Source: Diprion similis (lineage: Eukaryota; Arthropoda; Insecta; Hymenoptera; Diprionidae). From it: DNA of 64,000 nucleotides. The notes under the pieces are model-generated. The model had not been told where the DNA came from. It searched no databases and was given only the letters and a program-made list of their open reading frames with translations. The position numbers were made by a program, and so were the translations under genes. The stretch lies in contig NC_060108.1 of the NCBI RefSeq assembly GCF_021155765.1, positions 26,747,025 to 26,811,024 of the forward strand, written 5' to 3'. This document shows positions 3,641-35,597 of this stretch, piece by piece (position 1 is the stretch's first letter; every line of letters starts with the position of its first letter).

Positions 3641-4937
3641 ATGCCACGAGGTGAGTTGACGGGAGGTGAAAATCCCGATTTTCGTAATTAGCATGAAATA
3701 AGAGTGTACAAGTACGCAATGTAATATAGGAGCACGTTCTTGTACTGAAGAAATCCTTCTGGATTTCCGCGGACCAAATAACCAATAGATTCGCATATTT
3801 TTTAGGAAAGTTCGTTAATCACAAGGGCAGAAATCGCCGCTTCACGAATCCTGAAGAGTTAGAGGAGCAGCGAAGGCAGGAAGAAAAACAACGACAGTGG
3901 AGGGTTAGCATTTTGAGGTTAACTTTTGTGAGCAATAATATGCGTCCCGGAATTCGCCTGTAATAAACTTGTAACCCATCTGAATACAGCAAACCAGAGG
4001 AGACGCAAGTTCTAGCGAGGAGGAGGAGCAGGAACAATCCAAAGCAGCTGGTGGTGACAAGCTGAAGAAAGTCGATGAGTCTGAATCAGAAAGCGACAGT
4101 GAGTCAGAGTCAGACTCGGACCCAGATGTAATGCGAATTCCTTTAAAGTCATACTTTTCTCTGATTTTCACAAAAGTTTACATTACGTTAGAGATTTCTA
4201 TCACTATTGTCAGTAGTTTAAATTATCGAAGTTATTATTGCCTACAACCATGTCACAGTTTGTTCAAGAAGCATTTTATTCAGTCACGTGATACTGTCTA
4301 ATTAAGAAATGTATTGCATCATGTTACCGACAACGACATGAATCACATTTCTGTTCGATTATTATTTTTGCTCACCTTTCTGCAATTCAAAGAACCTAAT
4401 GGTATTACAAAAACAATTCTATGTTACTGATATTGAAGGAGCTCCTTGAATCATATTACTTACATACATTATTTACAGGGGAAAGCAAAAGGGGTAGAAA
4501 ATCTAATTCAAGTAGAAAATCCGAATAGGGTGCAAAAAAAAGTGAAGAAATTATCCCAGCTGAATGAGACGCTAGCAAAATCATCCAAGCCCGAACTCTC
4601 ACGAAGAGAAAGGTACTTATTGATCTGATAAATAACTACTCTGAAGAAAATGTGATTTGCAATGTGTTCTTCTTCTGATAGTTGTATTAATCTTGTAACA
4701 CTATTCGTTTTGCGTCTTAGGGAAGAACTGGAGAAACAAAGAGCAAAGGCACACTACCAGAAACTCCATGCTGAGGGTAAAACGGATGAAGCACGTGCGG
4801 ATCTGGCTCGACTAGCAATAATTAAGCAGCAGCGAGCAGAGGCTGCTAAACAGCGGGAGGATGAAAAGAAACAAAAAGAATTGGCGCAACAAAAGAAGAC
4901 GGAATTAACGCAGAAGGCTTTGGGAAAACGTTCCTAG
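3641..4937 (+). CDS. PDAP1: PDAP1 / HASPP28 (28-kDa heat- and acid-stable phosphoprotein)
   Basis: Exons 3641-3650, 3806-3903, 3990-4127, 4479-4612 and 4721-4937 join in phase to 198 residues. The first exon carries only ten coding bases (MPR plus one base). Recognised family blocks are an N-terminal basic stretch (GKFVNHKGR), an acidic Ser/Glu-rich middle with many possible CK2 sites (about residues 45-82), the block [23 protein letters not shown], and [18 protein letters not shown] near the C-terminus. Human PDAP1 is 181 residues with the same order. PDAP1 was described as a PDGF-associated phosphoprotein; its molecular role remains poorly defined. A poly(A) signal follows directly. Confidence 0.95.
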
Positions 4938-6698: not shown

Positions 6699-8328
6699 AT
6701 GGCCGATGACAGTGACATTGACAGCTGGTATTTAAGAAAAGATGAAATCGTTCAGACGTCCCATAAAAACCTGCGTTCGAAATTCAACGACCCTGGTCAC
6801 AACGGGATTAGACTATCAAACGGTTACTCCACAGCCTCCCACCGGTCTCGAGCCGGGGAACAAAAATCGTCCGGATCTAGCACTGAAGTTCGTTTCATAA
6901 ACCCAGCGATATACGCGGAGTCTCTCACACCCTCGAACGGCTTCACCGAAAGCGTCGAGACGCCCTGCAGCACAAGCACCGACGAGGAGGCAACCGTCGT
7001 CGTCGAGGTCCGTTGCGGCGACTCGAACGGTCTCGCAGACGGGTTCTCCACCCTATCCGTCAACGAAAACTCCCCCAGCATCGGCGACGGGGATGCCCCT
7101 AGTGATCAGGTTGATCTGGGTGCAGCGGACACGTACCGGTGCGGTTCTGAGTCAGACACATCGCGGACCTCCACGCTTACCCTGACGAACAATTCAAAGT
7201 CCGTTACTCGGCTCGTGAGGCGCTGCGTAATCGATGGGTCCTCAAAAATTTACGACGAAGGAGATACGGCTGTGGATCAGGAGGACGTTCACAGGTGCGT
7301 CATGCTTCGTTGTTCTTTTAATATTTCTAGTTCGAGCGCTGAGAATAAGTGGACATGACTTGTTTTTCAGGTTCTCGACGAATTGTCGCAGAGTAGTGCA
7401 GTTCTCTTCTTCGTCGCTTTCGAGTTCTGCTTTCTCCGACTCCAGGACCAGCGGCCTTGATCTTGCTCGGAGAATCGCCCATCAGGAATGGGTCCAGAAG
7501 AAGCAGCGGGCTGCGCTCCAGAAGAGCGAAGCTGAGCGCAAGGCCGAACTCAGACGTCGGCAGAAAGAAGAACGGGCCGAGAGGGAACGACTTGAGCGCG
7601 AGCGGAACGAACGGGACAATTTTTTAAAATGGCAGGAACGGAAGAAGAAGGAAGAAGCGGATAGGAAACAGGCTGTCGAACAGGAACTCGAACTTCAAAG
7701 GCGGCTGAAGGCGGTCGAAGATCGAGCCGCCATCGCGAAGATAATACATCTTCAGCAGTGGGCGAGAAAAAAGGAAGTTGCGCAGAAAGGTTTCGTTTCA
7801 CTTTCTTTTAGTCAATTTTAGTGGATACTATTGTTGAGAATGCATGATTTCGTCGCGAGGAGGAGATGCTCATCAGCGTGTCGATACCAAATGGTACATT
7901 TCCTGCTGTTTGTGTAGCACAACAGAAGGAACAAGAGCTTAAACAAAAGGCCATTGAAGAAGATCGGAAAAAGAGACTGGCGGAAAGCTCTCAGGCTTTT
8001 GAAAAGTGGCGAGAAAGCGCAAAGAGCAGACCCAGACCTGCTACTCAAGGACTCCTACGTTAGTACAATTATAAGCTGATTAAATATTCAGATAAAGGTT
8101 GACCCCCTCGGCTTTAGTAATTTTTCATTCCTCTTTTGAATTTTATTCGTTGCCAACTGCGTAGCCCACCAGCGTGCTAAGCCATCGTACGTGAATCCGA
8201 AGCCCTGGCAGCAAATCGTCGACGTTGAAGAATCGGAATCACAGGAAGATTTGTTGCGTAAGAAATCCGCAGTGCAGGGCAAACAAAAGGGTAATATTGT
8301 TAGAAGAAGCATCGCATCGCATCACTGA
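6699..8328 (+). CDS. CCDC34-like coiled-coil protein
   Basis: Exons 6699-7294, 7371-7789, 7918-8058 and 8165-8328 join in phase to 439 residues. Residues 1-200 are Ser/Thr/Asp-rich and probably disordered. Residues from about 230 to 380 are a long charged coiled coil, with the repeated element EWVQKKQ / FLKWQERKKKEE / LQQWARKKE (Trp followed by basic and acidic residues) that marks the CCDC34 family. The tail carries SYVNPKPWQ, a short conserved C-terminal motif of that family as I recall it. CCDC34 is linked in mammals to sperm flagella and ciliary transport; whether that holds here is inference. Other coiled-coil families with Trp-Lys-Lys repeats are the alternative. The start was taken as the first ATG of the exon, just after an acceptor. 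Confidence 0.62.
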
Positions 8329-9569: not shown

Positions 9570-11137
9570 TCAATTGTTCAACAGTTCCTCCTCTTCCTCT
9601 TGAAGTCTTTGAATCTCAGATTTGTTCATAAAGTAGTACGACGGTTGGCGTGCTTTCTGAAAACAACAAATAAAAATCGCTCTCAGTTCTAATTCGCAGT
9701 TTACGCATCGATAGATCTCAGCAATCACGTCTTACCAAATCTTTAAGAACTCGTTTTGCCCCATACTTGATCAAAACGTTACTCAAGTCTTCTACAGCTT
9801 CGACGCCCATCGCGTAATGCAGGGCAGTTCGCTCTAGCTGTAATGAATTTACATTATTCAAGTACAGTATCATGTAGTTACATTTACATTCGAATGACAG
9901 TCTATGTACTCAAGCCTGCATCGTAATTCGCACTTACGTTATCTCCGATCTTCAAAGTCTCCGGATAATTCTGAGCAATAAACTTGACCATTTCAACATG
10001 CTGTCCCAGGGTTGCGATGTGAAGGGCGCAACGACCCATCGAATTCTTTCCCACAGCCAGCAGGCGGCCTCCTCCATTACCGTCACTCAGGAGTTCTTTA
10101 ACAGCGTTAGTATCGCCTCGTCGCACTGCCTGATGAACTTCTTCACGTCGAGACTGCAAGTAGTGAAATTCATAGAAGACTATGAATGGTCGCAAATTGT
10201 TGTTCGAAGATACGGGTACTACACATTTCTTTTTCCATGATACTTGCCACAAAGTTTGGTATAGATTGGAGGAACTGAACGGTGGCCTCGTGTCCTCGCT
10301 GAGTAGCAACGTCGATGATCTGCACACCGTCATCCTTGACGTCCAGGATGTGGTCGTATCCCTCGAGCAGAAGCTCTACGAGTCTTTCGGTTTCACCTGA
10401 GAGCGAAAAAGTCATCAGGTATACCTAGGTAATTAGGTATATCAAACAATTACAAGCTTATTCCTGATAACCTCGATCATCGTACCTCTGGCTGCCAAGT
10501 AGACAACCCAGCGATCAATTTCCGCAATATTCTCCGGGATGCCGGCCTGGTGTGCGACGTCTCTTGCTGTTCTGTAGAGTTCATCCCTGAAACCAACGTT
10601 CACATCCGACTCCTGTAGAAACTGGAACAATCCGTTTGCAGCGTGGGAACGAACGGCGGCAAAGTGGAGGAGGCTCTGGCCATGCTCGTCCTGCCATAAA
10701 TCAACGGGACATGAGTGTTGGTGTGAAAACTTTCAGACTATGAAAAATGGAACAGACATTTGCATAGAATTAATACCCGGTTGTAATTATTGTTCAGGGT
10801 GGAATCTGCCGCATCCGAATCCGGACTCTGGGGATAACCTGCGTCATCATCGGCTGGATGTTCATGGGTTTCCTGTTCGCGCTCCGATATTATCAACACG
10901 TTCGATTCCTACGGTAGTAAGCAGAGAGTCGATTTGTGATCGCAACGTGAGAAGAAGATTATGAGACATCGTGGAGTGAGATGTTCATCGAGTGTCTGGT
11001 GAGTTTTACCTGAGTTTTCACTCTTGGCTTGTTCTTGCTGGCGAAGTTGTACAAGTATGTTGCCAGATAAGTAATGGGATCCTTAGGGCGTGTGTTTGCT
11101 ACTTCGGTTAGTCCTTTTATCAGAGGATCACCCAGGG
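9570..11137 (-). CDS. Dpy-30 motif plus fourth ankyrin module (3' part of ankyrin locus)
   Basis: Minus-strand exons 11137-11010, 10908-10777, 10690-10486, 10396-10251, 10153-9938, 9837-9736 and 9656-9570 join in phase and end at a stop. The first exon encodes LGDPLIKGLTEVA, RPKDPITYLATYL, a clear Dpy-30 dimerisation/docking motif. Next come an acidic linker and ankyrin repeats (HGQSLLHFAA, CALHIATLGQHVEMVKF, TALHYAMG), ending in SYYFMNKSE and a Glu-rich tail. The first exon needs one base from an upstream exon. The exon ending at 15748 supplies exactly that base and also the missing start of the Dpy-30 motif (EMLTDK). I therefore read this as the 3' half of one long transcript of about 1168 residues, from 22158 to 9570, that skips the kinase-like exon. 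The donor at 10250 (GTGGCA) is weak but is the only in-phase choice found. Confidence 0.7.
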
Positions 11138-13300
11138 CTAGAGAGGGATATTTTTTATTGCCAGGAGTTACACGGAGATGTATGTATGATAGTATAATGC
11201 TACCTACAAGAAGCGAGGTAGTGACCCTCGTCGGTTCGAAAAATGGGGATGTCGATCTTAGACTCTCCTGGAACGAAAGAAATCGGTTAACGTTGTAGGA
11301 AAAATTCATCTGGCGTGGAAAACATCGATATGAATGTCTGATATTTTCGGAGTATAAAAGCTCGTGGTAAACGCTGCTGGTTACAGGACGTATAGTTGTT
11401 TGTGGTTGATACTGGATAAACTTAACAACAGGGCTAGCCAGTCCCTTTGACAATGATTTAAAAGTGGAACAGAGTATATACGTAACGCAGCATGCAAAAA
11501 CACAAAGCCAACGAACACAAGACATCACGTTATAGAAATTCAGAGAAGTTTTGTTGATGACATCGGATCACAGTAGACATAGTATTGAGCAGAAGGGTAT
11601 TTGAAAAAGACACTGAATTCAAAAGTCAGTATCATTGCTCGTTAATTGCTTGACGCTCCAAATGAAGATTATATACGTGACTGACGCGTTGTTGCTGTGA
11701 GAATGTTAATGCTTGGTTTATTTTTGCTGTAAATCAGACATTTTTACTTTCAAGAAGGTACATCGTCAGTTCTTTCTTGCAACGTAATGTACAGTGCGTC
11801 AAGTTTTGGAAATCCGTGTGTTTCTTGAATACTCTTATGGGTTATACAGATAAGATATGGGCCTAGTAGCAGTAGTAATAATACTAGTAGTAGTGGTAGT
11901 GTAAAATTTGCATTTGAGAAGAAGAGGTTTATTTTTTTCACTATTGTCGTTTTTTTCGTTGAGGTACTTACACAGCAGTCAATATTGATTGAAATGTTGT
12001 CCGTTTGCGCAGTATGGGAGTATTAATTTCAAATATATTTAGAAAGCAGAGCCTTGTCTTCTTTTCAATACACGCACACTGTACACTACGCACTGCACAC
12101 ATAAAGAGAAAGAGATAAAGAGGGTTCAGAGTGACGGCGAAAGCTCTATCAGACCATCCTCAAATTTAAAGGCGAGAATAGTCTCGATTTATCAATTATT
12201 AAGTTAATCCATCAATATCAATACATTATCAGCGAATATCGGATTATACAGTAAAATCGGTATCCGTGTTATGTTTATAAATCGAGTTGGAAAGATACAT
12301 GCTCCGCCATATGGTGGTTGTTGTTATAACATTGTAAACATCGATTCATGCGTGACATATAAAGCTTTGTTAATTTTTTATACGAATGCACATGGATGAC
12401 TTGCCATCAATGAAATATGGAAACACTAGACACAGCATAATTTTTCTTACTCATCGCGAAACAATCTGTTATCGTTATTACTAGCAGTGATTGCTATTAC
12501 AGAATGGCAAAACATCAAACGCATGTCGTATATCCAATTATCCGCATATTTATTAGTCAATAATATGTAATCTTACTAACCCGATATGAAAAATTCTTCA
12601 GCTCTTCCAGTGCCTAATAATCCAAATTACTGATCTGCCCCAAAATTTTTGTCATTAAAATTCTGCCATCAATTAAACATTTCTTAATAATTTACATGTT
12701 TATAATTGATATGCATAATATCGAATCAATGTATGTAAAGTAGTACAAAATAATGAGTTCACATGCACATATCTTTCCAACAAGATATTTATGTAATATG
12801 TACTGTACATACTGTATATATTGTGTATACGAGTATGTATAACTTATTGGTTTTGATTTAATGCTCCGACATATTACAATTCGACGATTAAGTACACAAC
12901 ATTGGCAAGGGCTTTACATCTAAGGCTAGGAACCGAAAGGGCGTAAACCTCAAATTTCACAGCAATCGATGATTTTACTGCTGAGAAAAGTGAATTTATC
13001 CGCATGAATTGAAATATCAATGGGTTACGCCCTTATGGTTTTTATCCCTCCTGGATATCACATAGAGAGTTCGCATAATAGTATTACAATCTATTCGTTA
13101 TCACCTTCACCACTATATACACGTATTTAACAAATTTGGCGATACGTGAGTTGAAAAACTTTACACATTTACTGTATGTAAGAAATGGGTGTTCTTGTAT
13201 TAATAATTGACATTTAACGCACATCCGCCTATAAACAACCGATTCATCACAACAAGATATTACCCAAAAATCGAACATTTATCCAATGAGTTTACTCATT
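11138..13300. other. Intron or spacer within ankyrin locus
   Basis: No coding exon was found. It contains an imperfect (TAG)n run near 11863-11900 and long AT-rich stretches. It would be intron in the Dpy-30 isoform and 3' flank in the kinase-like isoform. Confidence 0.5.
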
Positions 13301-14703
13301 TTAATTATTATTAACCCGGGACCGGCGCGAGCTAGTCATTCGTTTGCGGAAGGCACTAGCGATCAGGGATGCAATCCTCATAGAATTATTGAGGGCGAGT
13401 TCTTTTTCGAGACTTGTGATGTTCAGCACGGCCCTGCAGAAGTCTTGAAGGGTCTGTAACTCTGTGACAGCAAGGCATTGCTGATTACTAATTTTCACGG
13501 TATTCCTCTGCATGGTTTCCCTGACGCTCAGTCCCCGGACGAGGCACAGATGCCACAAATCTCCAGGCTCCTTCGTGAGCTCCGGGAGTTTCGCGACAAG
13601 GTTGAACTTGAGTGTATTCCCGAGCACAGTGGGCCTCGACGATAGAAAGCCCAACTTCTGGTCCTTCTTGAAGGCCAGTCCCGCGTCGAGCACTGACATT
13701 ATTCGTCCCAGCCGCACGTATGCCCTCCCAATCCGCCCCGGGCGATCCTCGGGCGTGCAGCACACCACTCTGAGGTGATCCTGCACGTTCACCCAGGCCG
13801 CGAGATCTCCTGCCGCGGCAACAAAGACTCCACGGCCGTAAGGCCAGTGGCGGCCATGCAGGCGCCGCTCATCACTCCTGGTCTGCGGGTTGAGGGGCAA
13901 CAGGAGGCCCGCGGCCGCGAGACGCGCGCGCACGTCGCTTGGTCGCTCGAGAACTTCGTTTAAAGTGTAGTAGGTACCGGCCTCGTCCTCGCTCGATCCT
14001 TCGGCCATAAAACTGGCGAGCTCGGGGCTCATCAGCTCGGTCGTTATGTCGCGCTCAGTCTCCTCTAGCTGGTTGACAGTGAGGTTGAGGGGAAGCGGGT
14101 AGGCCGTAAGGTTGCGACAGCACTCTATGACCCCGGCCAACATGTGTTTGGAGGTCGGGTCCAGGTCGAATTTTTCTACTACGGCTACGCTGTGCGATTT
14201 TTCGTCGGCCGACTTCTCCGTGTCGAAGAAATGCGAGTCCGGGTTGTCAGGGATCTCGCCGGTCACTGTCACGCAGTGGAGATCTCTGATCAGTGGATCC
14301 AGCAATTCCGCGAACACAACGTAGCTCTCGTAGTCCGGCACTATAATGTAGCCCGGGAAACATTCCTCGTCCAGGTTTGATGGTCGAACGTGGCTCAGGC
14401 TGTTTAGGCTTACGAAACTTCCGATTGAGCTGCTGCCACTGTTCATGTTACTGTACTTTCTAAGAGCGGGCCAGATAAGGTCAAACAGGTTGTGATCCAA
14501 GCGTGTCAAACGGTGCTTCAGTATTTCAAAAACTGGGCGTTTCAGGTACCGCCCTAGAAGTATACCAGTATTTGTTGCGTTTAATCCGGATGACGAACCT
14601 CGACGTCCACCACCTGCCAACAGCTTGAAACAACGCTCCAGGGTCACCAGGGTTTCCGGTTCTGTGACGTCGCGCCGCGCGGAATATGTGTCTCCTCCGG
14701 GAA
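13301..14703 (-). CDS. Degenerate arginine-kinase (ATP:guanido phosphotransferase) domain exon
   Basis: A single 1403-bp exon encodes 467 residues up to a stop. It spans a whole phosphagen-kinase fold: the N-terminal helical domain (ILLGRYLKRPVFEILK, then YESYVVFAELLDPLIRDLH) and the catalytic domain (AYPLPLNLTVNQLEE, GTYYTLNE, WPYGRGVFV, QDHLRVV, LGFLSSRPTVLGNT, LPELTK). Key catalytic positions are lost. Arg357 sits where arginine kinase has its reactive Cys in CPTNLG. The ATP-binding STRVR arginines are Val192 and Glu194. The second nucleotide arginine is Lys366. Arg312 (HLR) and Arg390 (RG) remain. It is therefore probably a pseudoenzyme. The exon starts in phase 1 after AACACAG, matching the one-base overhang of the exon ending at 15748, so it can serve as the last exon of the ankyrin gene (1297 residues). 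A separate gene with an unseen first exon is the alternative. Confidence 0.75.
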
Positions 14704-15747: not shown

Positions 15748-18700
15748 CTTTATCGGTCAACATTTCGTCAGCAATCTTTTCATGCGCCCCGAAATCCCGA
15801 AGTAATTTTTTATGTGAAAAGTCCTCCTGATTAGTCTTATAATAATCCGCCTTGTGCCCAAACTGTGTAAAATCGAAACCCACAATATCATCAATCCGAA
15901 TATCAACACGCCTATTGGCTACTGTTTTTCCAAAAAACAAGTTCAAGTAGAAAAGTGAAAAATATTTTGAACCGCAGTCCGAACTCACGTTATCTTGGAC
16001 CATAGGATTTGCTCCCAGGTGCAGGAGGAGACTGTAGTAATGCCCGTTGTCCGCGAGGGTGGCTGCGTAATGAAGAGGCGTCCTTCCGTCCCGGTCAGGA
16101 GCGTGTGCCGTTTCTGCGAACCTGCCAGCAAGGTACCTACGGAGTTCGATGTCGATTAAGAATTAAAACGCGAGTCAGCAATTCCTTAGCGATGGTGTCA
16201 GGTCGGCTGATCGATTCACGACTGGGAACAAAGGGCGTGGATGGGTATCGACGACTCGGGTTGACCTTCTCCGCAGTACAGAGAAGCAATTGCAATCCTT
16301 AAATAAGTTATGAGACGTATGTACATCGCGATTGAGAATCGCATTCCGCACGCGGAATGTCACACCCGTCTCACGCGCTGGCGGTCACAGAAAAGGCCAA
16401 GGCTTCTTAAATTACTGATTGGAAAATCAATGCGACTAGGCTTCAGTAAAGTCTGCTGCTATGGAAAAAAATGTTGCAAATTATTCACTGATTTTCTTTC
16501 TCACCTTATGACACCGGTGTGTCCGAATATTACGGCCACGTGCAGAGGCGTTGCTCCGTTTGGCGATGAGCCGTCTCTTGCAATTGCAAATTTACGACGA
16601 TCCAAGGCCCCCTGAAGGTCTCGCAGGTTACCTTCGCGCGCCGCCATGTGAATGGCGTGTATTTTTCCCTGCAAATTAAAAAAGTCCACGTGCTGAATTG
16701 CTGTTTGCATACTCTGGGGAATGTTGTACGTTCGCGTTAATACTTTTGTGCAGTCAAAAGCAGAACTTTTTTTAATTTCATTTGAAACTCCATGTTCATG
16801 CAAAACCTTAGAAACGTGTTAGACACTATTTGGCACGTTGAAGGGTTTATATATTCGAGGATAAAGAACGCACCATGTAGGCAGGAACGTTATCGATGAA
16901 TGCCTGAAGTTCGGGGTTGCTCGAATGCCTTCCGACGAGTCTGCGACCCTCGCCGTTTAGCACCAAAGCAGCGAGCTGCTCCATGTTTCCGTTTTCAACA
17001 AGATCCTCAACTTCCGGATCAACCGTCATGCTTCCATCGTTCAACTCGGCTTCGGGTAGTTCTTCGTGTTCACCGACTATCACCTGGACAAACAAAAGAC
17101 TTGCGCATGATTCGCAATGCGTCACGTTACACAGTGGAAGGACAATCAATAATATATCTCTTTGCATATGTGTATGCGTATATGTATTCATGTATTATTT
17201 ATTTTCTTATCACCCGCATATACTGCACGCGGGCTAAAATTTAAGTACCTTGAGCCATCGGACGACACGGAGTGCGGGCGTTATCGCACTGAATTAATAA
17301 AATACAATTGTAAACCATTCATCATTTATTTGCCGCAGTTAATTTGGGTTAGAGTTTTATATTCATGATTTACAGACAACTGTTATTGATGTAGCAGAGT
17401 GGGTTTCAATTTCGTTGTTTAGAATCCGATGTATCATTGTTATAACAATCGTTCTTCAATAATATCAAATTAATATTAGAGAAATTTAATTTTCAAAATT
17501 TCAACAAAATTCTTCTTAGCCGAATTCGATTCGTGTACATATTTCACACTCTTCATACATGAAACTGTAATGCTTGACGTTGCCGATGCTTCATTCCAAA
17601 AATCTTTATTCAACATCGTTAGCTTTCGTATAAACAACCCGTACGCCAGTTTTAGCATTAATTGTACAAAGAGAGCTTGATTTGAGTCGAACCAGGTTAT
17701 CTCTCCCCGCATCGCAAGCTCAAAATCTCAATCCTCCGATCATACTTTCCAACTTCTACATCTCAATTGCTGCTTGAAATTCCCCAAACCTGATCATCCT
17801 CGTGAACCGTATCGTCAAGTCCGGAATCTCCGGTGCTTGGTTCAGTTCGTTCGTCGTGATCCCCTTTTGTCTCTTCTCCAAGAGCGTCCTGTTCTTTGTG
17901 CTGATCTAGAACCGCTTCCTTGGTCTCCCTGACTTCCTGGTTACCTTCGCCTTCCGTACCCTTCTTGGAATTTTTCACCACCACATCATCGTCCGACGAA
18001 TCCTCATCAGTTTCCTCCCTTAACGGCTCCACCATGGGCTTCGACTCTGACTCTGCCTCTGGTTCTGCCTCTGGCTCGGACTCTGGTTCTGGCACTGGCT
18101 CCGGCTGTTGCTCTTGATCGGGCTCTGGATCTGATTCTGTTATTACTTCAGTTTCAGATTGCGGTTCCTGCGCTGGTTCCGGTTCCGTTTCTGGCTCGGA
18201 TTCCGGTTTCTTCTCTGGTTCCTTGGGCTCAAGCTCTTCGTGGGCTAGTTTTATCTGTTCCTCCAAGTCGTCCTTGCTATCGTCTTTGAAACCATTCTGA
18301 AAAGAAGATGCGTTGCTCGCTAACTGATCAAGATCTTGATTTCGGAAGTCGATCGCCATGGATTTCGACTGTAAATTCGGAGCTCATATTGTCAAACAGA
18401 ATCTGAATTACCCCGAAAGTTTCCTTCTCGCTTTCCCCGGACTTTGATGGTGCCTCCGGACTCCCAAAAGCACTGTCGATGTCCGTGTTGCTCACAGCCT
18501 TCTTTACCCCTCTAACCACCGTTTCTCCAGCTTCCAAGATTCGCCAGTCCCAGTTCTTCGGGTAAGATGTACCGGAAACGCGCGGTGCTTCTGGTATGAC
18601 GACCAAATTTGTCGCGTCTATGTCCGACGGTCGGTTCTTGTAGAAAGACGCTGTCTTTTGTCTCTGTAAGTATAATAATTCCGCATAGTTAAAAACAGGG

Positions 18701-21700
18701 TTACAATATTTGGTGGATAATTCACGGTGTGCTTCTTGTCATTGTTATTGTGATTGTGAACATTGTGGTTGTCAAATGATGTCATGAAAATATCAGTGTG
18801 TTAACTAACGTTATCCATTTGATTTTCGTTGGCGCCGCTTTGGACCAGCATGTCGTACATGATCCCGTCATCCTTCAGTGCTGCAGCGTAATGGAGCGGA
18901 GCCTTCCCTTCGGAATCCTGCGTGTCAATCGTTTCAGGACACCTGGTGAGGATCTCTCGGACAATTTCAGTGTGCCCCAATCCAGCAGCCTGAGAAAAGA
19001 GTGCAACATTTGGAGCATTTAATACCGTTTCGAGTCTGCAGTGACTGCAATCATTTATTTAAGAGACGAAGGATGACGTTTACCTTGTGAAGAACGTTCA
19101 GACCATTGGCATCTTTGCTAGTGAGGATCACCGGGCAAACAGGATCGCTCACTTTCTGCCTGAACCCATCAACGTCGTTTTTAACCGCCGCAGTATGAAT
19201 GTCTTTCACAGTGCCCTGCGGGGATTGAAACTGATCGCTTGAACAACAAATTTTTGTAGTTAATGAACACCGAGATCGAATGTTTGCCTACCATTATGAA
19301 CGGCACTGCCTCTAAGAACTTCTTGACTCGAGGATTGTTGCTCGTCTCGCATCGCAGTTTTAATCCATGGCCCTCCCATAGTACTTGCTGCAGCTTGCCG
19401 ATGTCCCGATTATGAATCCATATCCGTATATTCGACGGCTTGAAGTCCAATGCTGAAAATAAAACATTTCGGGTATTGAAAAAGGTTCACGTCAATTTCA
19501 CCGTCCATCTCTTTAGCAAAGTGGTCAAGTTTAGCCACCGCGAGTTGGCGGAAAATCGAGTCAAGTGAAGGAAGAGGTGTTTTAAAGAATGCATGGGGCA
19601 TGCCGTGACTGCAAACGCTTACCTCGTGTGCCGATGTCCGTGTGCTTTGGAGCAAAGGAATCGCGTGTTTCGCAGGTCGCTAAATATTTTATCACTCAGT
19701 TATAATCTAGGTGAACACACACCTAGTCAGAGGAAAGGTAGGTAGAAGTGAGCTTGCACGATTTACGATATTGCAGCAGCCACCCGCATTAAACCAGCTT
19801 TTAAGCCGTGGAAAGTATTGCTTTATTTTTCATTTTTGTCAGTACCTATAAAAGATGGCCGCAAAAAACGGACAGTGTCTGTCGACCGGATACTAGGCAG
19901 ATTTTTTAGCGGCGTGATAATCGTGTGGTAGACCATACAGATATGAAAAATAGAGGTGAATGGTGGCAGTCGAACAGGGGAAGTCCCGGCATGCCGGAAA
20001 TAAGATAATGTCACACCGTGATACAGAGGATGTGGAATAATAAGATAAAAATCGACGCTTCCGCCTAACGCCGCGAATAATATGTGTTTATACCTATTTA
20101 CTTTCCTTAAGACATCGCAAATTGCGTGTTCTGGAGCTGACTGCTGTTGCAACCATTAAATATTCGAACAGACACGACGTACGTGTGCCCGTTACGAACC
20201 GTGTATTTTACCTAACAAGTTTGCGATGTAATAACACGGGTTCCTTGAAGCATAAGTTGTGCAACGGAATTCATCAGGTGAAATTTTCGTGATTTTTTTC
20301 GACTATTTTCAAACTTGTCACGGGAAGAAAGAAGAATGAGAACCAGTAAAGTCACGTCCAGCAAATCGTCACTGCAATATCTTTCCAACGGCTATATAAG
20401 ACGAGTGATCGTCGCTGGCTTAATTACTCTTAAAACATAATTACATCCGGCGGATCCACAACGTTTTCACATAAAATAATCGATGAACGTTTTCCTGCAT
20501 TTGGCCGTGTCCTACATATCATGATTGTGTGTCTCTGTGTCTGTAAACGAGCTTGGCACCTATTACGAATTTACGTTGTATCGATCATCGGCGTTGGAGT
20601 AAGTTAAACGTACCTAATGCATAGCTCAGAATATAAAGGTATATGTAAGGGGCTTGTGTTGAACTCTTCTGCGACGTTAGACGAATTTAAGTACATAAGT
20701 TACGTCGCAGCTGGCATTTTCACCTTGCAATTACGCCGAATGATGGGGAACAAGCCAGTATTTTGCAAGTTTCACTCTCTTCCCCTCTTCTTCGAACTTT
20801 GCATAATACCATTTTTTTATCATGGAAACACTCGTGCAGGCGATAACCGGCTGATCCTATACTCACTCTCTTTAATGCTGCTCACTTTTCTTCCCTGCAT
20901 TTTTTCACCCTCGGGTAATTCCACCTCCCCCGTATGCTCGAGGTAGTAAGCTGCCGGCTGACCCCGCTTGTCCCAGACACTTGTGTCACAGCCTCCCTTC
21001 ACCAGGACATCCCAAACGGTGTCTGGAGTTGCGCAGGCTGAACAGTAGTGCAGCGCTGTTCTGCCCTCCTGCGGAAAAGGATTTTTTACTTACGATTAGG
21101 GTAACGCTCGAAAGTTTCACGATTTATTCTCCTTTTAACGTGACTAATTAACACCTCGCTACAAATTTATTGTATAATTTATTGACGACAGTATGAGGGC
21201 ATACTTGAAATGGTACGTCGAGCTCGGTATTTATTGTTATTAATATTATTGTTATTCAACCTTTTCGACCAAATACTTTTTATGCGCAACAATCGACGAT
21301 AATTAACGTTTATCAGAATGAAATGACGCAAGAGGCGATAAGTAACGTAATAATTTGAGTTTATAGAGTATTAGAGAAACAGAAGGAAGAAATTAGAGAC
21401 AAGCGATATTTATTACCGCCTATTGACGGTTTTCAGAGACAAAACACTACCTAATTGGCGAATTAGGAGAAGCGGAAACCGATAACTTTTGAGACTAAGG
21501 CGGGCGTCGCGAAAAGACGACGTATCGCGCTAAGCGATCCGGACACGAACCTGCAATTCGACAAACAGGTGGTTTACAGCAGAGGCTGGGTCACGCGAGC
21601 TGTTTCAAAACGAGGAAGACGACGGAGGTTCGGAAAACTAGAGTCTAATAATTATGAACAAGAAGTTGGCGAGCTTTAAATTTCGACAGCTAAACTCTCA

Positions 21701-22158
21701 ACTAGACTCACTCTGTCTCGCTGTTGGGTTGTCGCGGGATAATTTTCCACCAAATACTCAACGATGTCCTGGTGATCATAGTACACGGCTTTGTGGAGGA
21801 GAGGAATGCCCGCGGAGTCCTTTGACGTCGCCAATTTCTTCTTCGGCTCGTCGAGGATCAGCCGTTGGACGTCACCCAGGGCGCCGCGCACCGTCGCGTC
21901 GTGAATCTGGCTGATTTTCGTCTACGGATTGATGCGAACGGAAAATGGAATCAGATCGCGTAATTTGCGGAAAGAGGAAGGTCGCCTCTCCGTTGCACCT
22001 CTTACCAAGTAGATCGGCAGCCCCTTCAGGAAAACCCGCGTTCGAAGGTCCGGAGAATTTTCACCCAGTAACCGGGTTCCTCGACCTTCCAGTACCACAT
22101 TTTCCAACTTCTCGATTTCCCCTCGCTGAAGCCACTGCCTAACGGTGTTTGGGTTCAT
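15748..22158 (-). CDS. Ankyrin-repeat protein, three tandem modules (5' part of locus)
   Basis: Minus-strand exons 22166-22006, 21921-21712, 21068-20867, 19679-19623, 19452-19292, 19215-19084, 18989-18810, 18663-18412, 18296-17790, 17083-16874, 16668-16505, 16136-15989 and 15862-15748 join in phase. There are three modules. Each has a helical unit ending in a hydrophobic P-Y/F-M/L motif, a repeat starting IHxAA, a repeat with PLHVAV or LHKA and GH, a repeat with [10 protein letters not shown], and a closing unit with xGxxAxYY (QPAAYY, KTASFY, HKADYY). Between modules 2 and 3 lies a long Glu/Pro/Ser-rich acidic linker (exon 18296-17790). Ankyrin repeats bind proteins; the partner is unknown. 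The exon at 22166 begins in phase 1, so ATG 22158 is either the start after a 5'-UTR intron or an internal Met. The last exon can splice to 14703 (kinase-like) or 11137 (Dpy-30). Confidence 0.8.
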
Positions 22159-29098: not shown

Positions 29099-30791
29099 TT
29101 AACGCGAAGGATTGGACTGCCACCCTGGCCAGGTCTTTATCATATCGAAGAGCTTGTCGCCTGGGCAGGCAGTCTGTGCAGCTTGTTTGTGCCCTAGAAG
29201 GCCGTAAGTGTTCTTTATCTTGCCCAACTCAACCCCACATTGGATCAATCTCTTCGCGGCATTGACGGCGGCTGCTGCTGGTTCCCGATCTGTTGGAAAG
29301 GGGTGAATAGAAACATGATTAGCTATATTGAACCAGTAATAATTACGTATTACCGCAGTCGTGCACTTACTCATGAAATTCCCTATGAAGCTAATTCCGA
29401 TGCTTCTCGAGTTGAACGGCACTGTGTGGGCCCCACGTTTATCCCATCCCCGACCCTCGTAGATGTTGCCATCCTCGCCAACGAGGAAGTTGTACCCTAT
29501 GTCACTCCACGACCTTCTATCGATATGGTCGATCTGCCCGAACAACAATAGCGTGAAAAACAAGTAAAATTTCGTCCGAGGAGAGAGTTCTTTCCCTTTT
29601 CAAGGTGCAGTGATATTATGTTTTCGTCGTGAATAGAACCATTGAATGGAAAGTATATTGCGTCGGAAAACAGTCGGCGAACAGTGGAATTGGTGGATTT
29701 TCTCTATTCATATACGACGGTAGAAAGGTTATCGGGAATCGTTATTGGAAAAAAACATTCTCCGTATATTTCAACGATTGGGCCCATAATTAAGTGTACA
29801 AAACAGAGATTCAGCTGCGATTCCAACCAACTTAAACAATCGGGTGCACATGCTGAAATTCTGTCTTTAATATTCTGCCCACCTGAAAATTTCGGACTTT
29901 CGCCTGACATACGGCTTGATTGGAACAAGCTGTAGATGCTGTATGGTGGATAACTACGAATGGTGCAGGTGTGATTCGAAGGGGGCTGACATTCCCGTTA
30001 GCCTCACGAGCTCCCCATTGAGATCTTTTTATTATCGTTGGGCAATCTAAGGGATCGAGAATAAACAAATTTTTTCAGAAGTTTTCAATTTACAAAACGC
30101 CCTAATACGACCGCGCTAATATGATTTTTAGAATTCGATTCTGATCGTGAGCCTCATAAAGGATAGCAATTGGCCAGAGCATTTGCAACTGCGTGTAACG
30201 CAATCGATTTCTAGTGAGTGAACCTAGTTTTAACCCGTCAAGAATAATGTGTAGTAGCCAGAGTGATTTGCACATAACGTTACACATGTAATAATAATTA
30301 TGAAAATAATAATGTTAACTTCGTAACAGCTATTCTGTACAGTATATTCAATCATACGGCACGGCAGTCGTGGCTGCGTAATTACTCGAGGGTCACATAA
30401 TGTTTCCTGTACGAGGCTAGATTGAGCCAGATAAAATCTAGGATTTCCGCATTAAAACTAGACACTCAATTTTGCACTTTTTACGCATTTACAACAACTT
30501 TGTGCAGGAATTGTTTGGTGCAGTGGAATATGCACGATGGAAAAAAGACTTTCCGCCTAATTTTATTCCGTCTAAATGAGTCGTACATTTTTATTTTTAC
30601 GTCAATATATAATAACGCGAAATTGTCTTCTCCGTTTTTTTATTGTATATCTATCTCATATTTTTGACAAATTTTGACAAATTATGAAAAATAAATTTCT
30701 GCATCAATGTTCGAGACTCACCAGCGTTTGTATAGACGAAAGATTCCACTATAAGGAGGATCGCTGAAATTGTAAGAGCTGCACTATTCAT
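29099..30791 (-). CDS. Short secreted peptidoglycan-recognition protein, amidase type (PGRP-A)
   Basis: Minus-strand exons 30791-30722, 30046-29883, 29533-29371 and 29289-29099 join in phase to 195 residues. Residues 1-23 are a signal peptide, encoded by their own exon. One PGRP/amidase_2 domain follows: RSQWGAR, VVIHHT, WSDIGYNFLVG, YEGRGWDKRGAH, GISFIGNF, LLGHKQAAQTACPGD. The zinc ligands of T7-lysozyme-type amidases are present (His57, His166, Cys174), together with Tyr92. Non-catalytic PGRPs usually have Ser at the Cys position, so N-acetylmuramoyl-L-alanine amidase activity is expected. The GW pair at 107-108 is the form usually linked to DAP-type peptidoglycan. Short, secreted, catalytic PGRPs (SC/LB-like) dampen or tune immune signalling or kill bacteria. 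The subtype cannot be fixed from sequence alone. Confidence 0.92.
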
Positions 30792-32857: not shown

Positions 32858-35597
32858 TCAATCGGTAGGGTTTTTCTTGAGGGTCGTGTTTTCTGTACCG
32901 ACGTCATTCTCCCCGACTTTTTCTCCCGTCCTTGGCCCGGATTCCCTGTACGGCTCCCCCAGGGCAATAAGGCCCGTCCATCTCTGGGTCCCGGTGATGT
33001 CCGCGGTCTTCGTACCCGGCTTGAAGACCCCCTTTCCCGCCAGGCCCCATAAGGGCACGGGGTTCGGCTCCCAGTGGGGCATCGTCTTAATATGAGCGTA
33101 AAACGTTTCCCCCGGGCATTGGGTGTCCCGGCCCTGTCGATGCCCGATAAGCTTGTAATCCGACCTGACCTTTCCCAAGGAAATACCGCACTCGATCAGC
33201 GATTGAAACGCTTCCAGAGACACGTTATTCGGCATGCGTGCTGAAAAAGGGAGGAAAATCGAAGGTCAAAAAATTGATGGGATGGATTCGACGTCCGATT
33301 CGCCGGAAGCGAATAAACACTCACAGGTATAATCGCCGATTATGCAGATCCCGATTCCTTGACCGTTGTACCCCGGGCAATGGGCGCCAACGTGGTCCCA
33401 CCCTCTGCCCTCGTAGACGTTTCCATCTCCGCCGATCACGAAGTGGTACCCGATGTCGGCCCAGTGGTTGACGTCCATGTGAAGGTCTTGGTAGCTCCGG
33501 ACGATGTTGATGCAAGTTGTTTCATCGTAACAGTAGTGGGGTATCCCTCCGTGGTGCGCCACTACATAGGATGAGGGTGATACCACCATGGGCAAGTATT
33601 CCTCCGTTGGTGAACGGGCTCGCCATTCGTTGCGGCTCACTATCCTGGGACAGTTAGACATCACGTCTGCTGGAATTTCATAATTTCATTATGCATCGCT
33701 GATTACATGTACGCAGGAATTGTATAATGTAGGTATAATGCGAATGATTCTACGTGGCAATGGGATTTGCAATGACTCGACAAAATTTTAAGTACCTGCA
33801 ACCGAGTTACGAATCGATCATATTGTACATATTTACATTTCTGCGGAGCAATATGGCCCGCCAATGCCCATCGAGAAATGATGGCCACGAGAGAGGAAGA
33901 AAAAAAAGAACAGAATGGATAAGTCTAATACACCTATCTCAGAGTGTACATAACACAGCACGGAAGCGAGCATCACGCTAGTTGCGCTATCATATTCTCG
34001 ACTATATTGTACCGCAATTTAATGTTTTTCACAAAACCAAGCGTGATTCTACGATAATGACGTCACTGCCGGTTATTATTATAACTATACAGTTGCTCTA
34101 GGCATTGAATTTCGTTTTTTTTCATTTCCTGTTCCCTCTTCCGTGTACCGAACTTTATTCGTGAATACGCAAATATATGCAGTGCAAAGTGAACAAGTAA
34201 TTAGCGAAAGGTGTTGTGGTGTTGTACCGACTACAGAAAAAACTCTTTATGATCACTCTAAGGTTGCCTATTATATGAGAGGTGCACCACGTGAGTTTCG
34301 AGTTGGATACGAAAATCTTCCATTGCCAGAATTTCATCAATCTAGAGTACGATATATAATTACCGCAATTGTTTGTCTTCCGACACTTCGAACCCGATTA
34401 CCGATACTCAAATCTTACCACGATAACACGATAACAAAGTCATCGAGTCTTTCTTTCGTCAGGCTGAATATAATAATAATGCGGGATTAGGAATGTTTAA
34501 TTTACACTTCCTTTTGCGTTGCACGTGAGTTTATTGTCGTGTTGCTCGTGGTGTTACGTTGTACCTCGCCTCAATTACGCTATCCAGGATTTTCACCGGT
34601 TAACAATACTCATCAACTCGTTCTAAACTTGCGTGTCATGCCTGATAAACGAGCCTGAAACTGTAATCTTGAATTCCATTGAAACAAAGCGATTGATTAC
34701 GATACTAAAACTTCACAGAATCTCGAAGAAAAATTTCACACAACAACTTGAAACTAACACTGTTTACGGTAAGCGATCTTCATAACAGCACATTGCATTA
34801 AACACAAGAACGTTTGTTTGATTGTTGAAGATAAAAACGTGGTGCTAAGGCACTGATTTTAAAAGATGCCGTGCAGTTCGCTGCTGATATCGACCTGCAA
34901 TTTTCAAGCATGGATAAGGCCTGATAATCGAAGGCTTTTTTGTGTGCCAGTAGCAATACTCTAACGATAACTTTCCGCATGAATCAAGTGAGATCGTAAA
35001 AACAACGTGATCCGATCAATTATCATAAATTTGTTGAAGAACCTTATCAATGGAGTAATCGGAATTAATTACTGATAAATCGGAACGTTTAAATCAGGTT
35101 ATTAAGTGCAGCAGGACTTCATGCTATACTACGCGATTAACATTCCCAACTGCGTTTGAAATATTTTTTAATAGCATTGAATAAAAATAGAATTCTTTAC
35201 TATTCAACTATTCAGACAATACAAGAAAATACTAGAAACTACCGATTAAAATTATCTGGCATCAGATGACAAGTAAAATAGTCAACACTGAAAAAGTTTT
35301 CTTCCGTGTACGGCCATGAGATCCGCACGACAAACGAATCCAATTTGTAGAGGAATTCCCAAACGCACTGAATTCTCTATTTGTACAACTCTAGCCAGAT
35401 GCACTGTACTATTATCTATTTGATTTTCGTTCAACGCAAAGGTGATCACTGAAAACAAGTTGGAACTAAATAATCTCACCCTTACTTGGTGTGGTGGAAA
35501 TTGTTTCTTCGGAGAGTTTGATGGGAGTTCCAATCGCTAAAGAGCCGATTGTACTCAAAACCATAATGGTCGATTTGTAATTGCTAAATCGACTCAT
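32858..35597 (-). CDS. Secreted peptidoglycan-recognition protein with C-terminal extension (PGRP-B)
   Basis: Minus-strand exons 35597-35480, 33669-33325 and 33240-32858 join in phase to 281 residues. The first exon gives a signal-peptide-like N-terminus (TIMVLSTIGSLAIG) and a short Thr/Ser-rich linker. Its link across a 1.8-kb intron rests on matching phase and a good donor (GTGAGA). The PGRP domain has RNEWRAR, VVAHHGG, WADIGYHFVIG, YEGRGWDHVGAH, GICIIGDY, LIGHRQGRDTQCPG. Zinc ligands His78, His188 and Cys196 and Tyr114 are present, so amidase activity is expected. After residue 217 comes an unusual 64-residue tail, Gly/Thr/Glu/Lys-rich with no recognised domain. It is in tandem with PGRP-A but not a recent copy, as the exon boundaries and sequence differ. 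An additional small exon inside the long intron cannot be excluded. Confidence 0.85.

Follow-up and report, generated by a model that had tools for sequence, protein, structure and literature searches.

A catalytically degenerate guanidino-kinase domain as a putative alternative C-terminus of an insect ankyrin-repeat protein

What does an arginine-kinase fold do in an ankyrin-repeat protein once its catalytic residues have been lost? The question is raised by a 64,000-nucleotide stretch of the genome of the sawfly Diprion similis (contig NC_060108.1, positions 26,747,025 to 26,811,024; hereafter the window, in whose coordinates features are given), where an exon on the minus strand at 13301-14703, here exon L, encodes a degenerate guanidino-kinase (GK) domain. 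Exons were modelled from splice sites and phases and then compared with catalogued proteins, which identified the gene as D. similis LOC124406047, encoding an ankyrin-repeat protein. From sequence comparison and structure modelling, we consider it fairly likely that exon L encodes an alternative C-terminal pseudoenzyme domain of an insect ankyrin scaffold gene.

The open reading frame of exon L (14716-13301, minus strand; 471 amino acids) opens a few codons upstream of the splice acceptor and closes with a stop codon at 13301-13303. Both halves of the fold are present because each of the two Pfam families exceeds its curated cut-off: PF00217 scores 103.5 bits (cut-off 22.4) and PF02807 scores 36.9 bits (cut-off 25.7). 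A phmmer search against PDB chains recovered 46 distinct sequences at E<=0.001 (best E-value, 7.9e-38), far beyond chance, all of them named arginine, taurocyamine, creatine, lombricine, glycocyamine or protein-arginine kinases; phage records gave no match. Structure prediction gives, with confidence, the arginine-kinase fold with its two lobes intact, and the model shows 30% identity to arginine kinase 1p52 across 346 aligned residues; a second structure prediction reached a mean predicted local distance difference test score of 69.2 and a predicted template modelling score of 0.60, with 253 of the 876 residues below 50 on the former scale.

Residues are numbered after Limulus arginine kinase, via a D. 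similis arginine kinase (AK1) that was assembled from exons of the genome and carries the expected residue at all 17 Limulus positions checked. According to the available text of the respective sources, the nucleotide of arginine kinase is guided by a cluster of Arg124, Arg126, Arg229 and Arg280, and Ser122, His185 and His284 contact the nucleotide ring (PMC12467219); the guanidine is held by Glu225 and Cys271 (PMC5598448) and, in the transition state, is polarised by Glu225, Glu314 and Cys271 (PMC11075012). Against AK1, the D. similis GK domain shows S122A, R124V, R126E (the STRVR motif reads AGVIE), H185G, E225Q, C271R, N274V, R280K, H284V, R330C and a deletion of E314, and keeps H227, R229, R309 and the WP-GRG core. 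The phosphate-binding positions 124, 126, 229, 280 and 309 are accordingly V, E, R, K and R, and the guanidine-positioning residues 225, 271 and 314 are Q, R and deleted; the arginine-holding positions 63-68 are substituted in most rows of the family alignment. Judged from the aligned residues, the domain thus retains neither catalytic carboxylate, nor the cysteine, nor the adenine histidines. An earlier note on this DNA had recognised a complete arginine-kinase fold in the exon, with the reactive cysteine turned into Arg, the STRVR arginines into Val and Glu and another nucleotide-binding arginine into Lys; the Pfam halves, the predicted structure and the alignment bear out each of these points, the fold being kept and the catalytic residues replaced, and add E225Q, the E314 deletion, H185G, H284V and R330C, which the note had not listed.

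The genome contains two more guanidino-kinase genes, at C3:13.07 Mb (L008) and C10:3.56 Mb (L007), with intact active-site residues at the columns checked (for the second D. similis kinase, residues were taken from alignment columns because a fixed numbering offset fails past position 126); most insects have a single arginine kinase gene, as stated in the available text of PMC9725125. The suggestion that exon L might belong to a separate active kinase gene is not supported, as the exon lies inside catalogued proteins with ankyrin repeats and a GK domain (ANK-GK proteins), and the two other GK loci are the intact ones.

The replacements extend across the family. The 140 matches with at least 250 matched GK residues correspond to 112 distinct sequences, a set that includes the partial P0113, two short GK-only gene models and three metagenomic proteins and leaves out P0114 and two copies from the window. 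Position 126 is acidic in 110 of the 112 (Glu 104, Asp 6, gap 2); E225 is replaced throughout (Gln 88, His 17, Leu 6, Arg 1), and Glu is found at position 314 in none. Arg occupies position 271 in 109 sequences (Cys 2, gap 1), and the combination of R126, E225 and C271 never occurs. H185 and H284 are lost from all 112 (with one gap at 284), S122 is kept in 24 and R309 in 38, position 280 is Arg or Lys in 99, and R229 and H227 are universally retained. Because R126, E225, E314 and most other ligand-binding residues are lost with the fold kept, the GK domain is best classified as a putative pseudoenzyme, an assignment consistent with the alignment and the predicted model as well as with the long-lived lineage described below.

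The idea that the domain is still a kinase, acting through other residues or on another substrate, draws on its complete length and fold and on the name 'Arginine kinase' displayed for at least 11 of 118 matches to the GK region, but these names look automatic, and with both carboxylates absent from every sequence and R126 and C271 from nearly all, we regard it as very improbable. A catalytically dead domain could instead bind nucleotide, arginine or phosphoarginine and switch the scaffold as an energy or arginine sensor. The invariant R229 and H227, the common R/K at position 280 and the intact two-lobed prediction speak for such a sensor; however, the acidic residue at position 126 should repel phosphates, several nucleotide or phosphoryl contacts (in the available text of PMC12467219 and PMC11075012) are gone, namely H185 and H284 in all sequences and S122 and R309 in most, and the arginine-holding positions are substituted in most rows as well, so that a sensor appears unlikely. 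In the pseudoenzyme interpretation, the GK domain probably works, as far as the residues tell, as a protein-binding piece rather than an enzyme.

Is the domain peculiar to the sawfly? A protein search with the GK region returned at least 118 matches, 112 of which combine ankyrin repeats with PF00217; they come from Hymenoptera, Lepidoptera, Coleoptera, Diptera and one cockroach, the orders being assigned from species names and general knowledge. A query from the cockroach brought in a termite, Diploptera, Timema and Schistocerca, and a Dpy-30 query contributed Anabrus; among the matches listed, all named proteins with ankyrin repeats and a GK domain are from insects. P0114, an unnamed metagenomic protein of 2144 amino acids with four repeated GK-like stretches and no ankyrin family listed, is perhaps from a protist and lies outside the ANK-GK architecture. 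The linkage of the domain to an ankyrin protein, which the earlier note had proposed to be in phase, is confirmed by the junction 15748|14703, which is in phase and yields P0002 exactly; the architecture is unusual, as the note held, relative to other phosphagen kinases, and it is not a sawfly oddity, being widespread in insects.

A panel of 77 rows was hand-picked from the matches of the GK, cockroach and Dpy-30 queries at one per species, without covering every species. In the tree, drawn with arginine kinases outside (the root being a drawing choice, with a long-branch warning for Timema and Anabrus and odd composition in Schistocerca), Hymenoptera, Lepidoptera, Coleoptera, Diptera and the polyneopterans are each recovered as a single group, with support that is modest in places (84/50 for Hymenoptera, 82/97 for polyneopterans). 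By parsimony, R126, E225 and E314 would have been lost first, before the split of Polyneoptera and Holometabola, and C271 and R124 would have been lost later or several times, given the tree with arginine kinases outside. If so, traces of the stepwise loss survive in R124, retained in five of the seven polyneopterans, and in C271, retained in two of the seven (two of the three blattodeans in the panel). The retention of the GK domain across insect orders argues against neutral decay and backs the view of the earlier note that the chemistry was lost and the fold kept, as do the 112-sequence alignment and the confidently predicted fold; the domain may, as the note proposed, be kept for binding or scaffolding. 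Exon L as a neutrally evolving relic or as an error of annotation would fit the lost catalytic residues and the faster divergence of the GK domain compared to most of the protein, but not its presence in proteins of several orders that the tree groups, nor the columns fixed in at least 95% of the 77 rows (35 as in AK1 and 22 at a different residue), nor the conserved tail ahead of the stop, and is extremely unlikely.

How is the domain deployed? Exon K of D. similis can be followed either by the GK exon or by the Dpy-30 plus ankyrin exons, and both joins (K to L and K to M1) reproduce catalogued proteins, P0002 and P0120, respectively. The latter protein holds ankyrin repeats (Ank_2, 167 bits) and Dpy-30 (53.4 bits) in one chain. 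In Neodiprion P0115, the donor for the Dpy-30 form lies within the GK exon, and predicted proteins with GK and Dpy-30 together come from wasps, ants, a bee, mosquitoes, a midge, three beetles, butterflies and Orthoptera; the class counts are rough, as the Dpy-30 pattern misses several true Dpy-30 isoforms (e.g. P0116-P0119). A basic tail (IF followed by an R/K run) closes the GK-ending forms, in 51 of the 57 panel rows without Dpy-30; the six in which the pattern was missed are Diprion (AFRKR by eye), Glossina brevipalpis (with another C-terminus) and four polyneopterans. That the tail is conserved as far as its stop speaks for a genuine GK-ending form. Of the 20 rows that combine GK with Dpy-30, 16 lack the tail pattern at the junction, so the tail is replaced before Dpy-30 in the predicted ant, wasp and mosquito proteins. 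An amphipathic or calmodulin-binding C-terminal helix was considered and dropped, the tail being conserved with a hydrophobic moment that is ordinary against shuffles of ten sequences.

Splicing from exon K picks the C-terminus, as the two catalogued D. similis isoforms show: either GK with the basic tail or the Dpy-30 docking motif with a fourth ankyrin module. In the most probable mechanism, a signalling complex would be anchored and put together by the Dpy-30 motif and the ankyrin modules, with the GK fold as an exchangeable surface for protein binding that selects the partner recruited. In C. elegans, ARCP-1 (F34D10.6) is a ciliary scaffold of the BAG neurons and, by binding PDE-1, delivers it to their cilia, according to the available text of PMC6953435. 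By analogy, the insect protein may reside in sensory-neuron endings or cilia, a weak inference with perhaps a third of the probability of the pseudoenzyme interpretation, and if the comparison holds, the GK fold would be an addition in insects or a loss in worms. Should the main site of the same protein be the sperm flagellum instead, the Dpy-30 motif would recall radial-spoke complexes, to which the title of a cited paper ties DPY-30 domains, and the GK fold would recall sperm-tail phosphagen shuttles; Culex sperm is rich in arginine kinases (available text of PMC9934393). However, the main text of that paper, as available, names two arginine kinases and has no 'ankyrin', and the nearest characterised protein found with ankyrin repeats and DPY-30 acts in sensory neurons, which makes a flagellar site quite improbable. 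The widest form of the pseudoenzyme interpretation, a first described family of phosphagen-kinase pseudoenzymes, spliced in and out of a ciliary or sensory scaffold, that recruits a partner, for example a cyclic-nucleotide enzyme or an arginine kinase that is active, and thereby links a local energy buffer to signalling, is tentative and rather doubtful.

Several observations weigh against the pseudoenzyme interpretation. The GK domain ranks lowest or second-lowest in conservation among the five modules in all of the nine species compared, although its conservation is still far from random; between Diprion and Athalia the identities are 71% (ANK1), 74% (ANK2), 88% (ANK3), 69% (GK) and 80% (Dpy30+ANK4), and between Diprion and Aedes they are 35, 51, 63, 45 and 55%, respectively. 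Because the domain diverges faster than most modules, the constraint on it is weaker. Furthermore, the pocket positions 122, 124, 284 and 309 drift and are not fixed; the isoforms are predicted annotation; four of the 20 rows with both GK and Dpy-30 (three beetles and Battus) keep the tail pattern mid-protein; the tail is not unusually amphipathic, as in ten sequences 15-35% of the shuffled versions reach its moment; and the available text of PMC6953435 makes no mention of a GK domain in ARCP-1, which the insect protein resembles in its other domains.

The exon model on the minus strand reads as follows. The first ankyrin module comprises exon A (22006-22158), which begins at the ATG of isoform X2, exon B (21712-21921; GT-AG, with fitting phase and a model equal to P0002) and exon C (20867-21068); the second module, exons D (19292-19452), E (19084-19215) and F (18810-18989). 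A linker, exon G1 (18412-18663), and an acidic Glu/Pro-rich linker, exon G2 (17790-18296), follow; a start of G2 at 18368 was rejected, this exon starting at 18296 in the catalogued isoform X2 (a 24-residue difference). The third module begins in exon H (16874-17083), continues through I (16505-16668) and J (15989-16136) and ends in exon K (15748-15862), the branch point. Exons A-K with L, which supplies the GK domain, the basic tail and the stop, are identical letter for letter to P0002 (isoform X2, 1278 amino acids). The G+C content of exon L is 55.8% vs 40.5% in the window, and several long open reading frames overlap it in other frames, perhaps because of this high G+C. The alternative C-terminus of isoform X4 begins in exon M1 (11208-11267) and continues with M2 (11010-11137), which carries the Dpy-30 motif (PF05186, at P0120 831-868; genome match C4:26758067-26758180), and a linker, exon N (10777-10908). 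The C-terminal ankyrin module lies in exons O (10486-10690), P (10248-10396), Q (9938-10153) and R (9736-9837), and the stop is in the final exon S (9570-9656); exon P has a GC donor instead of GT, and the intron after it (window 10248) is thus of the GC-AG type. Exons A-K with M1-S are identical to P0120 from its residue 6 onward; the five extra N-terminal residues of X4, MKDLQ, probably reflect entry 8 bases upstream of exon A from a further exon. The gene thus also includes the Dpy-30 exon at 11.0-11.3 kb and the exons with ankyrin repeats between about 9.6 and 10.7 kb, and the match to P0120 rules out a separate ankyrin gene at 9.6-11 kb.

Upstream of LOC124406047, on the same strand, lie exons of the peptidoglycan-recognition type (Amidase_2) at 29099-29599 and 33266-33685. 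In Microctonus P0020, Amidase_2 at 58-192 precedes ANK and GK; this protein is probably a fusion of adjacent gene models, and its arrangement suggests that the neighbourhood is kept in Hymenoptera. On the plus strand, the window contains a PP28-type casein kinase substrate phosphoprotein exon (4656-4937; PF10252, 74.6 bits) and a coiled-coil open reading frame (7231-7821) with a weak CCDC34 match of 21.9 bits, below the 35-bit cut-off.

Pseudoenzymes in scaffolds are a known kind, and no ankyrin-guanidino-kinase protein or phosphagen-kinase pseudoenzyme was found described among the open-licence papers listed, nor was anything on LOC124406047 in the available text of sperm, antenna, ovary-kinome and testis papers. 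Because at least 11 of the proteins bear the name 'Arginine kinase', members of the family can be taken for enzymes when kinome or target lists are compiled. CG15118, which we take, as a lead only, to be a possible Drosophila ortholog, has no established tie to the ANK-GK family. For this unconfirmed lead, the available text of the sources records a P element that hits enabled and the first intron of CG15118 (PMC2553195), expression in Bolwig's organ, brain and nerve cord (PMC2323238) and a link to Glossina GMOY006156 (PMC4977773).

The nearest described architecture found is that of ARCP-1, which shares ankyrin repeats, a DPY-30 domain and two transcript forms with the insect protein (available text of PMC6953435); among the best 120 of 1243 matches of the Dpy-30 query, none was named ARCP-1 or came from Caenorhabditis. 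The complex of ASB9 with creatine kinase (PDB 6v9h), as far as its record describes it, likewise pairs a protein of ankyrin type with the guanidino-kinase fold, although as separate proteins with ElonginB/C, whereas LOC124406047 joins them in one chain with the catalytic residues gone. With arginine kinase (PF02807 and PF00217), the GK domain shares the two-part fold, R229, H227 and the WP-GRG core; it differs in that R124, R126, E225, C271, E314, H185 and H284 are replaced or deleted, in its fusion to ankyrin repeats, in a final helix that is predicted to be longer and carries the basic tail, and in longer N-terminal inserts that are partly modelled with low confidence. Pseudokinases keep the kinase fold without key catalytic residues and are conserved over long times, the usual cases having the protein-kinase fold. 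The GK domain, in contrast, has the unrelated phosphagen-kinase fold, so that, if our interpretation is correct, the evolution of pseudoenzymes reaches a fold unrelated to protein kinases.
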